Source of the DNA: Pelosinus fermentans JBW45
GTDB lineage: Bacteria; Bacillota; Negativicutes; DSM-13327
Direction of reading: 5' to 3'
Length of the DNA stretch: 64,000 bases
Assembly (NCBI RefSeq): GCF_000271665.2
Contig: NZ_CP010978.1
Location: forward strand, 3,378,501 to 3,442,500
This document shows positions 25,467 through 30,587 of the stretch, in pieces. The notes below the pieces were generated by a model. The model was not told where the DNA came from. It saw only the letters and a list, made by a program, of their open reading frames with translations, and made no database searches. A program made the translations under genes and the position numbers. The first letter of the stretch is position 1, and every line of letters begins with the position of its first letter.

Positions 25467-25892
25467 CTATAAGTTCCCCATAACCATGCCAATCTTCATG
25501 CCATCAAAGAAGCCCTTGTTATAGTGCATATAGGTAGCCGTTACCATCATTAGAGTAACGGCTTCACTCACTTCCTCCGCCTGCCCTTCTAATAGTAGAT
25601 CAACTTGCTCCATTAGGCTTGTATATTCACTTGAGAAGTTACCAAATTGCAACTTCTCCTCTGCTTTATCCTGACGCATCAGAATAAATTCCTGCCAATC
25701 ACGCAGGGCATCCCCTTTATCCATCCATCGTCCGGTAAGCATACTTTTAATAGGTACAGTGATTTCTTCTTGCCCCTTTTGATCTGGGGGCAGAATCTCC
25801 TTCATTCTATCTGTCAATTTTCTTTGACAGCGCCGGCTTTTCCTCTTTCGCTTCGCTATTACTGATATCAATTTATATCCCCCCATATTCAT
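25467..25892 (-). CDS. Hypothetical helical protein
   Basis: I do not recognise this family. The predicted product is about 140 residues, mostly alpha-helical, with a basic N-terminus (KRKRKSRRCQRK), a Trp-rich middle (GRWMDKGDALRDWQEF) and a C-terminal YNKGFFDGMKIGMVMG segment reminiscent of small Firmicute proteins that end in a GxxDGxK turn. GGGGGG at about 25880 would serve a TTG at 25871; the ATG at 25892 is the alternative. A hairpin (about 25902-25945) overlaps the upstream side. Confidence 0.5.
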   Translation of the reverse strand: MNMGGYKLISVIAKRKRKSRRCQRKLTDRMKEILPPDQKGQEEITVPIKSMLTGRWMDKGDALRDWQEFILMRQDKAEEKLQFGNFSSEYTSLMEQVDLLLEGQAEEVSEAVTLMMVTATYMHYNKGFFDGMKIGMVMGNL

Positions 25893-26089
25893 ACTGCATG
25901 GAGCTTCTTCTATTCCTCTAGCTACATATAGGAATAGAAGAAACCAACACACAGCTACTTAATGGGAGAAATTAAAAAGCCCATGCGAGGTTTTTTAAAC
26001 CTACACATGCGCTTTGCTTCATCTTGATTGCATGCAGACGCTCAGCTTCTGCCAGAACTACAATCCTACTATCCCGAACATACCATCCC

Positions 26090-26118
26090 TTGTTTTCAGG
26101 GAAAGTTCACGGTATAAT
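26090..26118 (+). promoter_or_regulatory. Promoter of a candidate small RNA
   Basis: TTGTTT and TATAAT are spaced by exactly 17 nt, about 6 nt ahead of a strongly structured stretch with a terminator end. Confidence 0.55.
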
Positions 26119-26123
26119 AAATT

Positions 26124-26216
26124 GTCGTCGTAGACAGGTAACTGTTACGTGTAGGTGCTTACCCACCTGCTCGTGCCTGAGAGTGCTCCAACACTCTTAG
26201 GACACGGCGACTTTTT
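26124..26216 (+). ncRNA. Candidate structured small RNA, class unknown
   Basis: About 93 nt. An outer stem pairs GTCGTCGT (26124-26131) with ACGGCGAC (26204-26211). Inside are hairpins ACAG-GTAA-CTGT, AGGTG-CTTACC-CACCT and GAGAGTG-CTCCAA-CACTCTT. The outer stem is followed by TTTTT, so it ends as a Rho-independent terminator. A consensus-like promoter lies just upstream. I could not match it to a known RNA family. The outer group II intron begins about 22 nt downstream. Confidence 0.45.
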
Positions 26217-26732
26217 AATTTCCACCTATTTCTAATTGTGCGCACGTTGTGCGCTTCATATATATTTCACAGAAATCATCGCTCCTGCGTTGCGATGTAA
26301 GACAACCGACTTACCTTATGCGAAAGCCGCTGGGGGACAATAGCATGTCGGTAAAGTCAGGATTAGACAGCAACTGCTATCGAGTAGCCTGGCGAGTCAG
26401 GCCATATATGGTAAAGCCTGTGGGCTGAATCCGGGTCTGTGGCTGTGTAGGCGCTGCCGGACGTAAACTCCGGTATCAATGGGTATCTCCAATATTAATT
26501 AGATTGGGTATAAGCAGGCCTATTGACGCACCTGCGGTAAGTAGGGAAACGACCAACCGGGTACCTACGTATGGAAACACTATATGGAGCTGCCAAACGT
26601 GACCTGCCTAAGTACCGGCTGACGGTATATGGCAGAGAGCCCTAATAGTAGCCTAACGGCCTTCTGTAATGGGAGGCACATGGTGAAGGGGGGCAGTATT
26701 CCAAGTTCCAACCTTGAAAGGAGTTGCTTTGG

Positions 26733-27645
26733 ATGGAGCAATCAAAACTCATGGAAAGACTGGAAGGTTATCGTCGTCGGAATAACGCCGACCATGGCTA
26801 TGTCAACGGTGACCTCTATCGGTTGTTCTACGATAGGGACTTGTACATCATCGCCTACAATTCCGTAAAGTCTAACGACGGGGCGGAGACCTCCGGTGCT
26901 GATGGCACCTCCCTACATGGCTTTTGCCAAGAGTGGATTACTGAACTTATTACATCCATGCGCGCTGAGTCATACCAGCCTCAGCCAAGCAGAACAACGA
27001 TGATCCCTAAAAGCAATGGTAAGATGCGCAAGCTCAGTTTTCCAAACGGAAAGGATAAACTGGTTCAGGAAGCAATCCGCATTATCTTGGAGTGCATATA
27101 CGAACCTACCTTCTCCAACCTCGCGCACGGCTTCCGGCCAAAACGTTCTACACAAAGCGCCGTCGCTGAAGTGGAGACTTGGGGAGGTACGATTTGGTTT
27201 ATCGAGGGGGACATCTCCGCTTGCTTTGATGAAATTGATCATCGCATACTTGAAACAATACTTCGGGAACGTATTAACGATGAACGTTTTATCCGGCTCA
27301 TCAATAAAATTCTTAAGGCCGGCTACTTCGACATGCAGCACAACTGTCATAGAGCTAAAACTGGGAACGCACAAGGCTCCTGCTGCAGCCCTATACTCTG
27401 CAATATCTATCTCGATAAGCTGGACAGATTTATGGAATGCACTATAGAGCGAGACACGAAAGGCAACTGCCGCAGACAAAACCCTGACTATTCCAAAGCG
27501 AGATATCAATACAAAAAGGCAGTCAGCAACGGCAGCGACCCGCAGAGCATTAAGTCCCTTTTCAACAAAATGAAAACCATCCCGTCAGGTGACAGATACG
27601 ACCCTAACTTTCGCCGGGTAAAGTATGTACGCTACGCTGACGATT
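26733..27645 (+). CDS. Outer group II intron reverse transcriptase, 5' part
   Basis: It encodes the RT fingers and palm: the substrate-binding TMIPKSNGKMRKLSFPNGKD, HGFRPKRSTQSAV, FIEGDISACFDEIDH (first metal Asp), GNAQGSCCSPILCNIYLD, and finally VRYADD. The frame is cut immediately after YADD by the inner intron at 27646. AAAGGAG gives the ATG at 26733. Joined to 29515-30371 it forms one roughly 590-residue maturase-RT. Without splicing of the inner intron only a dead fragment (ending CAPRRSVQVA) would be made. Confidence 0.88.
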
Positions 27646-28192
27646 GTGCGCCACGAAGGAGTGTCCAAGTAGCGTAGCTACTTGAAGGCAGCCATGCTGT
27701 ACAGATGATGGTGGTAGGTCCACCGAAATCGCCATACAGGTGGAGGTTTCAAACTACCTTAAGGTGCTGTGGCCAAAATCCATGGTATTGAGCGTTAAGG
27801 AAAAGGCAGTGATAAAACTGTCAAGTGCGTATTAAGGAGATGAATGAACAAATGAACCACTTACGAAAATGTCGATAGCGTAGAGATTCCATCAAAACCA
27901 GGGGGTAGTCGTTAATCTGGGATAAGTCTAGGGGAAACCTGTTTACTGCCTAGACGGTGGGCGGCATAAAGGTGGCATGAACTTAATACAGGCGTCTGTA
28001 CGGAACGTGGGAACCCACGGGCTGATGTTAAGGGAGTATATCAAGCGGAAGAACCGCAAGATAAGAGTACCAATGCAGTCATGGGGGCAGATTGGGTTGT
28101 AGTAGTGATGAAGTTTCTGTAATGGGAATGGAGCGAAGAACCCGAATTATTCAGTTTCAAGAATAAGTCAACTTTGAAAGGAGGAGGAACTT

Positions 28193-29437
28193 ATGCAAGA
28201 AACAAAGCCATACAGTATTTCCAAAAGAGCAGTAATTACTGCTTATGAAAGAGTGAAAGCAAATAAGGGAACCTATGGAGTGGATGAGCAATCTATTGAG
28301 GATTTTGAGAGAAAGCTAAATAATAATCTCTATAAGATTTGGAATAGAATGTCGTCAGGAAGTTATTTCCCGAAACCTGTAAAGGCAGTAGCAATTCCAA
28401 AGAAGAATGGTGGAACTCGTATTTTAGGAATACCAACCGTAGAGGACAGGATAGCGCAGATGGTAGCGAAGTTATACTTTGAGCCATGCGTGGAACCGAT
28501 ATTTTACGAAGATTCCTATGGATACAGGCCGAATAAATCAGCAATACAGGCAATAGAAGTAACAAGGAGAAGGTGTTGGAGAAAAGACTGGGTTTTAGAG
28601 TTTGATATAAAGGGTCTATTTGATAACATCAGACATGATTACTTAATAGAAATGGTAAAACACCAAACAAAAGAAGAATGGATTCTTCTGTATGTACAAA
28701 GGTGGTTGACAGCACCGTTTCAAATGGAGGATGGAACGATTGTTCTAAGAACTTCAGGAACGCCACAAGGTGGGGTAATCAGTCCTGTACTTGCCAATCT
28801 ATTTTTACACTATGTATTTGATGATTATATGACGAAAGAGTTTCCAGCAATACCGTGGGCAAGATATGCGGATGATGGAATTGCACACTGTGTGTCTCTT
28901 AAACAAGCGAAATATTTGCAACGCAGACTACAGGAACGATTTGAGTGTTTTGGATTAGAATTAAATTTGGATAAGACAAGAATTGTATATTGTAAAGATG
29001 ATGACCGAATAGGAAATCATGAATACACCTCTTTTGATTTTCTGGGATATACATTCAGACCAAGACATGCAAAGAATAAATGTGGAAAGTTCTTCACTAA
29101 CTTTCTGCCAGCAATGGGAGAAAAGGCGAAGAAATCCATAAGAAAAGTAGTTAGAAAGTGGAAGTTGCAGTTGAAACCGGATAAGGACTTATTGGACATA
29201 GCAAATATGTTCAATAGCCAAATACAGGGATGGATTAATTACTACACGCATTTTTATAAATCAGAGATATATGAAGTATTAAGATATATTAATGGACGTC
29301 TTGTTTACTGGGTTCGCAAGAAATACAAGAATCGAAAATCAAGACAAAGAGCTGAACATTGGCTTGGAGAAATAGCAAAGCGTGATAGAAAACTGTTTGC
29401 ACACTGGAAATTTGGGATACTGCCAACGGCTGGATAA
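28193..29437 (+). CDS. Inner group II intron reverse transcriptase/maturase
   Basis: An intact 414-residue LtrA-type protein. RT motifs are present in order: AVAIPKKNGGTRILGIPTVEDRI (abridged), YGYRPNKSA, LEFDIKGLFDNIRH, SGTPQGGVISPVLANLFLHYVFD and ARYADDGIAHC, then the maturase X domain (FDFLGYTFRP, GWINYYTHFY). No HNH endonuclease domain follows; the protein ends near LFAHWKFGILPTAG, so integration would rely on pathways that need no endonuclease. AGGAGG precedes the ATG. It looks functional. Confidence 0.93.
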   Translation: MQETKPYSISKRAVITAYERVKANKGTYGVDEQSIEDFERKLNNNLYKIWNRMSSGSYFPKPVKAVAIPKKNGGTRILGIPTVEDRIAQMVAKLYFEPCVEPIFYEDSYGYRPNKSAIQAIEVTRRRCWRKDWVLEFDIKGLFDNIRHDYLIEMVKHQTKEEWILLYVQRWLTAPFQMEDGTIVLRTSGTPQGGVISPVLANLFLHYVFDDYMTKEFPAIPWARYADDGIAHCVSLKQAKYLQRRLQERFECFGLELNLDKTRIVYCKDDDRIGNHEYTSFDFLGYTFRPRHAKNKCGKFFTNFLPAMGEKAKKSIRKVVRKWKLQLKPDKDLLDIANMFNSQIQGWINYYTHFYKSEIYEVLRYINGRLVYWVRKKYKNRKSRQRAEHWLGEIAKRDRKLFAHWKFGILPTAG

Positions 29438-29440
29438 TGG

Positions 29441-29474
29441 GAGCTGTATGAGCTGAGAGGTTCACGTACAGTTC
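29441..29474 (+). ncRNA. Domain V of the inner group II intron
   Basis: A 34-nt helix with the catalytic AGC near the 5' side and the UUCA-containing loop. It lies 4 nt after the inner RT stop. Confidence 0.85.
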
Positions 29475-29514
29475 TGAGAGAGACTTAGGGGGAAGTTCCC
29501 TAGGTCTACTTGCT

Positions 29515-30371
29515 TCCTGATTGGCCTGATTGCTCCCAAAGCCTATGCAGTCGTTTTGAAACAGAGAATCAAGGAATTCCTGAAAAACAATCTTTGCCTC
29601 AGGTTAAGTGACGAGAAAACTAAAATCACACACGCCGCAGATAAAAACGTAGTTTTTCTCGGATATATCATCCGCAAGGGCTACGGCAACCACAACAGAT
29701 TTAAATGCGATCCTTTTGACCCAACCCTCCGCATTTACATGAATGTGGAGGGTATCCTGAAAAAGCTGCGTGAAAACGGCATGTGTATAGCCAATGACTA
29801 TCCCGTTGGTATCGCTCGTCTTCTTAGAGAACCCCCGGAAGAAATCATCAGATATGGCAACCAGGTACTCCGTGGACTACTGACTCAGCAACGCGGCTGC
29901 TACAACTTCTTTAAGGGCGGACACATCCAATACATCGTGCAGTTTTCCATAGCTAAAACTCTAGCTCGCAAATTCGACATAAGCTTAAAGAAAATTTTCG
30001 CACGCTACGGCAAGTCTCTTTCGGTCAATTATGAAAACGCCAAAGGCTACACCCGCTCAATTAGTTTGGCACTGTACAAGTCTTTTTCAAGGCAAAAGAG
30101 CTTCTTCGCTACTGTCAAATCGGCAATTACATCATTTCACCTGCCGAGTTACAGCTTGGTAAACCCGCTTACCCGTGCTTGCTACATCTGCGGTAATCCG
30201 CATCTTCATGTCAGCATGTATCACAGGCAAACAAAGAAAAAGCTCATTAAGCCCTATCCACCGATTGTCACTGTCATGCTGACGATCAACCGGCGTCAGA
30301 TACCCTTATGCAACCACTGTTTTGCCAATATCGAAACCAACAGGTTTCATCTTAATCAACTCAGTCGATGA
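29515..30371 (+). CDS. Outer group II intron reverse transcriptase, 3' part
   Basis: The frame resumes as FLIGLIAPKAYAVVLKQRIK and continues through the RT thumb (CLRLSDEKTKITHAADKNVVFLG) and maturase X domain. It ends with a Cys/His-rich tail, CYICGNPHLHVSMYH and IPLCNHCFANIE, which resembles a degenerate HNH/zinc endonuclease region. It has no own start and depends on removal of the inner intron. Together with 26733-27645 it makes a full-length protein. Confidence 0.88.
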
Positions 30372-30391
30372 TAACTCATTTGGAATATGGA

Positions 30392-30425
30392 GAGCCGTAT
30401 GCGGTGAAAATCGCTTGTACGGTTC
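30392..30425 (+). ncRNA. Domain V of the outer group II intron
   Basis: A 34-nt helix pairing GAGCCGUAUGCGGU with its 3' side around a GAAA loop. It is typical in length and in its 5' AGC, and is followed by domain VI. Confidence 0.85.
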
Positions 30426-30587
30426 GGGAAGGGGCGGATTACTTTGTTAATCCGCCTATTTCATATATTACTTTTCTTTGGGATTGCAAGCAAAAAGTAC
30501 TGTGGAAAATCAGCTCTTACAGTAAGACTTAGGTTGTTACAACATGGAAACTAAAAATCCGATATCATACATTATCTTAATTAAAAT

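Follow-up and report, generated by a model that had tools for sequence, protein, structure and literature searches.

A repeated element with a predicted antisense RNA opposite the mRNA start of small genes in Pelosinus and related bacteria

According to the accessible part of PMC5703833, the 87-nt antisense RNA of plasmid pT181, RNAI, is complementary to an untranslated leader, and in pT181 and pIP501 the binding of the antisense RNA allows a terminator to fold immediately ahead of the gene, whereas otherwise a pre-emptor segment pairs with the 5' arm of that terminator. The same excerpt mentions staphylococcal plasmids that are thought to be pIP501-like, with a leader of about 320 nt and the antisense promoter midway along it, and it describes RNAI of pSK41 as an RNA of about 83 nt whose complement is a part of the leader some 100 nt ahead of the translation start; this RNA is proposed to make the leader form a stem that masks the ribosome-binding site, transcription being described there as not attenuated (PMC5703833). 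For the SymE/SymR pair, the available portion of PMC1891008 places the SymR promoter inside the symE reading frame.

The element described here was found in Pelosinus fermentans JBW45, in a stretch of 64,000 nt (contig NZ_CP010978.1, positions 3,378,501 to 3,442,500; hereafter the window), where a hairpin RNA lies beside a group II intron. Judged by its sequence, this RNA is one copy of a repeated antisense element that faces the mRNA start of a small gene. As in pT181 RNAI/repC and pIP501 RNAIII/repR, an antisense RNA with its own promoter appears to be fully complementary to an mRNA leader, and an intrinsic terminator lies in that leader ahead of the gene. Antisense RNAs of the pT181/pIP501 type are roughly 80-140 nt long. 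Unlike those systems, the present element is chromosomal, with up to 25 copies per genome and loops diversified between copies, there may be a second switch at its ribosome-binding site, and the genes behind it are SymE, DUF6809-like or without family rather than plasmid rep genes. Being chromosomal, multicopy and linked to other genes, it is not a member of the pT181, pIP501 or pSK41 plasmid systems. By its anatomy it shares with pSK41 RNAI a translational side at the ribosome-binding site, but its family also has a conserved leader terminator, a difference that holds as far as the accessible part of PMC5703833 describes pSK41. Like SymE/SymR, it has an antisense RNA directed at the 5' region of an mRNA and, in several genomes, a SymE-family protein; unlike in SymE/SymR, its sRNA promoter precedes the start codon by about 200 nt or more, within the leader, and many copies, the window's included, do not stand ahead of symE, four of the proteins behind other copies being SymE. 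The open-licence literature searched on chromosomal antisense attenuators and on small RNAs of Sporomusa and Pelosinus yielded nothing on this antisense RNA. Our best reading, by analogy, is that of a multicopy chromosomal system that would work like the pT181/pIP501 antisense attenuators, and whose switching we infer.

A predicted plus-strand hairpin RNA with its own promoter

The RNA gene lies at 26090-26217 of the window on the plus strand. Its promoter (26090-26118) consists of TTGTTT (26090-26095), 17 nt and TATAAT (26113-26118), as the first-pass annotation of this DNA had proposed, and TATAAT and the TTG of the -35 box recur in nearly all of the 135 copies compared. The -35 box matches the consensus at 3 of 6 positions, and because of this poor match a mechanical promoter scan did not list the promoter. 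The predicted transcript of about 93 nt runs from 26124 to 26216, the limits already assigned to it from sequence, with its 5' end placed to within +/- 3 nt. When the segment 26122-26217 was folded, the layout formerly described, with three hairpins inside an outer stem that closes as a terminator, was reproduced, with a cloverleaf-like form: the outer stem (26124-26131 / 26204-26211) is followed by the T-run TTTTT (26212-26216) and encloses hairpin A (26133-26146), hairpin B (26147-26174), with a hypervariable loop at 26158-26163, and hairpin C (26176-26201), with a hypervariable loop at 26186-26191. The 5' arm of hairpin B (26147-26156) is the antisense of a segment of the opposite mRNA, termed b (ACCUACACGU). 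The folding energy was -45.6 kcal/mol, compared with -25.4 +/- 3.3 for shuffled sequences (z -6.1; 0 of 200 as good). At the gathering cut-off, neither the window element nor four related loci matched any family of Rfam 15, in agreement with the description of the RNA as unclassified, and a permissive Rfam scan of the region returned two chance-level matches only (E 3.7 and 5.1), neither of them on the sRNA.

A covariation search, the check suggested with the first description, did not refute the RNA gene. It was carried out on an alignment (A3) of 91 distinct copies picked by the pattern ACGTAACAG.{0,6}CTGTC, which had given 105 matches before duplicate removal, two copies at contig ends being left out. 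Standard pairs filled 99.2% of the 3003 cells of the 33 pairs of the fold, and 8 pairs had changed on both sides, a number not reached in any of 500 shuffles; the covariation score was 0.144, against 0.078 for the shuffles and 0.024-0.049 for versions in which the alignment was slid. The bulk of this covariation came from hairpin C, with compensatory changes in 7 of its 10 pairs, and hairpin A was invariant in A3, in part because the copies had been selected by its sequence. The second set, A5, comprised 30 matches of a covariance model, selected without the A3 pattern and aligned by fitting to the model; it is not wholly independent of the first, L128, L132, L134 and L135 being the same or nearly the same places as first-set records. 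In A5, 96.2% of cells were paired and 10 pairs had changed on both sides. The outer stem had one pair with compensatory changes in 10 sequences and another in 2, and hairpin A had a compensatory A-U to G-C change in 9 of the 30 copies.

The strand that folds is, by the asymmetry of its wobble pairs, the plus strand, i.e. that of the sRNA: read on the plus strand, the alignment contains 372 G.U cells and 6 A.C cells, and read on the opposite strand the same cells become 372 mismatches and 6 wobbles. Of the 372, 272 come from three U.G/G.U pairs that hardly vary. The sRNA promoter has been kept as well, with TATAAT in 134 of the 135 copies and TTG 17 or 18 nt upstream of it in 133, over 85 distinct spacers. 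L088 and L132, which depart from this pattern, are also without the leader motif b' described below; along with L085 and L103 they are damaged or incomplete copies in which the mRNA 5' end or the terminator is lost.

These observations bear on the possibility that the fold belongs to the minus-strand mRNA, as a riboswitch or another ligand- or protein-sensing leader, and that the plus-strand promoter is incidental. The conservation of the minus-strand promoter, terminator and ribosome-binding-site hairpin would fit such a leader, as would stems and junctions that are kept around variable terminal loops, and a conserved leader hairpin (GCAG..GCATGCA) is unexplained. We nevertheless hold this reading to be very unlikely, given that the fold is better on the plus strand, that the plus-strand promoter persists despite its many different spacers, and that copies with 98% identity elsewhere already have divergent loops, as does one pair of copies whose linker is identical. 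By comparison of its copies, the plus-strand RNA is real, i.e. conserved, structured and equipped with its own promoter and terminator; the fold, the plus-strand G.U bias, the conservation of pairs and the kept promoter all agree with the initial proposal of an RNA gene in its own right. That proposal had missed both the antisense relation to the minus-strand mRNA leader and the repetition of the element, eight times in this genome.

The minus-strand leader and the proposed switch

Opposite the sRNA, a predicted mRNA is transcribed from the minus strand, and the 5' part of its leader is complementary to the sRNA. A promoter for this mRNA, TTGCAA-16/17-TATAAT, was found in at least 99 of the 135 copies, a lower bound since TTGCAA was seen by eye in 6 of 14 inspected misses out of 36. 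In the window this promoter is split by a plus-strand group II intron (26238-30464) that itself contains a second, nested one: the outer intron divides the minus-strand -10 box into two halves (26235-26237 and 30465-30467; TATAAT in empty copies), so that the -35 box TTGCAA (30484-30489, minus strand) is now beyond it. L012 of G002 shows the site without the intron. The intron had been suggested to have inserted behind the sRNA terminator, and it does begin 21 nt past the T-run, but the actual site is inside the minus-strand -10 box. A second copy (L003/L156) carries the same nested intron pair at the same place, 99.6% identical over 4446 bp including the flank, and in these two of the eight copies of the genome the intron has broken the mRNA promoter and left that of the sRNA intact. 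Because its mRNA promoter is broken, the window copy is a poor one for testing the switch.

The leader, about 300-450 nt long, contains an intrinsic terminator and then a ribosome-binding site that is sequestered; a small ORF follows it. In the window, on the minus strand, the 5' end of the leader is segment a (GGUGGAAAUUAAAAAG, 26211-26226), whose complements are the sRNA tail and, further downstream, segment a'. The leader terminator (25968-26012) has the stem GCGCAUG..AGG / CCU..CAUGGGC followed by UUUUUAAUUUC; its 5' arm contains segment b' (AUGUGUAGGU, 25999-26008), complementary to b, and its U-tract is a' (25968-25979). A further hairpin (25879-25967) joins the C-run behind a' (25964-25967) to the G-run of the Shine-Dalgarno sequence (25879-25884). 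The ORF itself spans 25467-25871 (minus strand), the TTG start at 25871 being assigned from the conserved GGGGG-N6/7-TTG, with an in-frame ATG at 25892.

Among 91 leaders, 88 contain the b' core GTGTAGG, its positions having been found by searching for GTGTAGG itself, and a stem and T-run come after it in the rows inspected; two of the three leaders without it are at contig ends, and L088 truly lacks it. The terminator arms and the a/a' pair were analyzed in 86 of the 88 leaders, one pattern miss and one incomplete copy being left out. The terminator 5' arm was identical in 84 of the 86, the 3' arm being variable, and the b' core was retained where the remaining terminator stem had changed (L068, G074). 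The leader alignment A4 covered 74 of the 88 leaders, 14 similar ones being left out, and it contains an extra conserved stretch, GCAG..GGCT.nGCG.CTGCATGCA, at about 26020-26060 (minus strand), between the sRNA complement and the terminator, to which the model assigns no role. In many genera outside Pelosinus and Propionispira the leader is about 100 nt longer and has inverted repeats of its own, and b' lies about 220-300 nt past b (L021, L064, L067).

We consider it probable that the plus-strand RNA acts as a cis-encoded antisense RNA (countertranscript) and represses the small minus-strand gene by refolding of the leader. In the proposed mechanism, the sRNA and the nascent leader would meet by kissing of the variable loops of hairpins B and C, which would make the pairing copy-specific. 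Without the sRNA, segment b (ACCUACAC) would capture the terminator 5' arm b' (GUGUAGGU) once this is made, and segment a would pair with a' and with the C-run behind the terminator, leaving the ribosome-binding site open. An sRNA covering a and b would let the terminator form and the C-run close the ribosome-binding site, turning expression off. Since the region complementary to the sRNA includes b and most, if not all, of a, binding of the sRNA would favour both of these off structures.

The predicted pairing of a with a' is better between cognate than between swapped segments, the cognate duplexes averaging -17.97 against -16.60 for swapped ones (0 of 2000 permutations) and -8.5 for shuffled ones, and a and a' change together in length and in bases (L025, L068, L089). 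Segments 25968-25979 and 26211-26222 were also considered as the terminal inverted repeats of a mobile repeat; this was rejected as the main reading because the arms covary as a pairing and because conserved promoter and ribosome-binding-site sequence extends past both of them.

For the attenuation branch of the antisense switch, pairing of b with b' before the terminator 3' arm exists was predicted in 62 of the 86 leaders, and since b and b' are invariant, they offer complementarity without covariation. In equilibrium folding the whole terminator is predicted to win in all 86 leaders, whether or not the 5' domain is blocked; this is therefore no proof of attenuation, which must be kinetic, unless the main effect is translational. 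At the ribosome-binding site, the Shine-Dalgarno sequence was predicted to pair with the C-run in 90 of the 99 copies scored, 33 further copies being unsuited to scoring. On blocking of the 5' domain, the mean predicted C-run/Shine-Dalgarno pairing rose from 0.60 to 0.85 across 91 copies: the Shine-Dalgarno sequence was predicted to close by more than 0.1 in 42 of them and to open by as much in 2, and its accessibility shifted by 0.1 or less in the other 47. A second switch at the ribosome-binding site is possible.

The same sequestration could serve a plain type I toxin-antitoxin pair of the SymE/SymR type, in which the sRNA would only block translation or trigger mRNA decay, with no attenuation. 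SymE lies behind several copies at scores above the Pfam cut-off (29 bits), and the accessible text of PMC1891008 reports that E. coli SymR affects translation more than mRNA degradation. We regard this explanation as unlikely, since in it the leader terminator, with its 5' arm better conserved than the 3' arm, would be superfluous, and many of the downstream genes, including that of the window, are not SymE.

Loop divergence between copies

Copies within one genome share the hairpin B stem at 99.5% identity, but the loop of this hairpin at 41% and that of hairpin C at 50%. Divergence appears early. Across 263 within-genome pairs (105 copies, 24 genomes), in which related copies are counted more than once, the 13 pairs that are less than 3% apart elsewhere differ by 1.9% outside the loops and by 44% in them, and in all wider divergence bins the loops differ by 48-57%. 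The G000 copies L005 and L007 have no differences at 81 positions of the two promoter spacers and the linker, and 6 of their 13 loop columns differ. The U-turn motif YUNR is typical of fast-pairing antisense loops. It was present in loop C of the mRNA in 45 of 91 copies (14.9 in shuffled sequences; 0 of 500) and in loop B of the sRNA also in 45 of 91 (26.0 in shuffled sequences; 0 of 500).

Near-invariant stems with divergent loops are the signature of antisense specificity, and on this pattern each RNA apparently regulates its own gene only. The argument uses the rate of divergence alone, because the statistic for avoidance of loop sharing within genomes has no power; it revealed no avoidance, single shared loops being slightly commoner than in shuffles (5 against 1.4 for loop B, 7 against 5.8 for loop C). 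Loops also differ between strains at what is apparently the same locus (the window copy and L012 of G002), and such differences go beyond what specificity within a genome requires by itself. Loop inversion as a source of this variety was looked at by eye only.

Loop identity also bears on the idea of an sRNA that works in trans against other mRNAs, its overlap with the leader being a by-product; we give this idea hardly any weight. RNAs with nearly identical stems in all copies could indeed share targets, and in two G000 copies the sRNA promoter is the only intact one; against this, the loops, which are the usual seed, differ within genomes, no pair out of 148 sharing both of them and all 25 copies of G082 having different loop pairs.

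Distribution, downstream genes and significance

The genome of the window contains 8 copies of a 149-bp stretch, with identities of 88-100%, and copies were found in 20 of 60 genomes (the window's own and 59 relatives). Among 300 genomes of the class, the covariance model detected the element in 30; among 299 evenly sampled genomes of the phylum, that of the window was the only one in which it was detected. In these two scans 10 candidates were scored per genome, so that the copy numbers obtained there are lower bounds. With more candidates scored, 25 copies were found in G082. Scanning named genomes by pattern yielded 68 stretches, which come from Pelosinus, Sporomusa, Propionispira, Propionispora, Anaerospora, Desulfosporosinus and several metagenome bins. 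The copies in Desulfosporosinus are L051, L067, L071, L102 and L108, and since this genus sits in what we take to be another class, its possession of the element suggests lateral transfer. A plasmid or phage origin was considered and set aside: searches of 72,556 plasmid records, at the sensitivity used, and of 50,697 phage records gave no match, and a single IMG/VR contig holds a copy, followed by a SymE-like reading frame.

The genes behind the element belong to several families, not one. When 20 downstream proteins were compared with Pfam, SymE was above the cut-off of 29 bits in four of them (43.8, 49.0, 33.5 and 33.8 bits), and DUF6809 was clear in one (85.8 bits against a cut-off of 27) and just under the cut-off in six (20.7-25.7 bits); the remaining proteins, that of the window included, gave nothing convincing in Pfam. 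Six of the downstream proteins were compared with NCBIfam as well, and the window protein matched neither Pfam nor NCBIfam. Family matches were likewise absent for the Pelosinus proteins of the MYRTYRTTKDT type and for the downstream proteins of Sporomusa and Desulfosporosinus. In Sporomusa, L049 and L076 precede a protein of 60-70 aa with LSEELDRL or LSQELDRL, which by eye resembles a Spo0E motif, although the L049 protein has no Pfam match; L064 has a different frame downstream than these two. Most of the 25 copies of G082 precede one protein family (QAFDQYVFTRVDHILNLAGTNDAGY...), two members of which had no Pfam match when tested, and by eye one copy precedes a SymE-like and another a helix-turn-helix-like protein. 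DUF6809 is named in no paper of the open-licence literature searched.

With somewhat less than even confidence, we propose that these chromosomes carry up to 25 dispersed, mutually insulated antisense attenuator cassettes, the loops of which diversify faster than neutral after each duplication. An incompatibility-like RNA identity code of the kind known from plasmids would thereby give SymE- and DUF6809-like genes separate, gene-by-gene control, possibly as addiction modules that escape silencing by their relatives. The loop pattern raises the question of whether each RNA silences its own gene only, and whether new duplicates diverge because of the cost of cross-silencing. If the model is true, it would add an RNA family absent from Rfam 15, it would link to it gene families without described regulation, such as DUF6809, and it would provide a natural set of parallel antisense attenuators.
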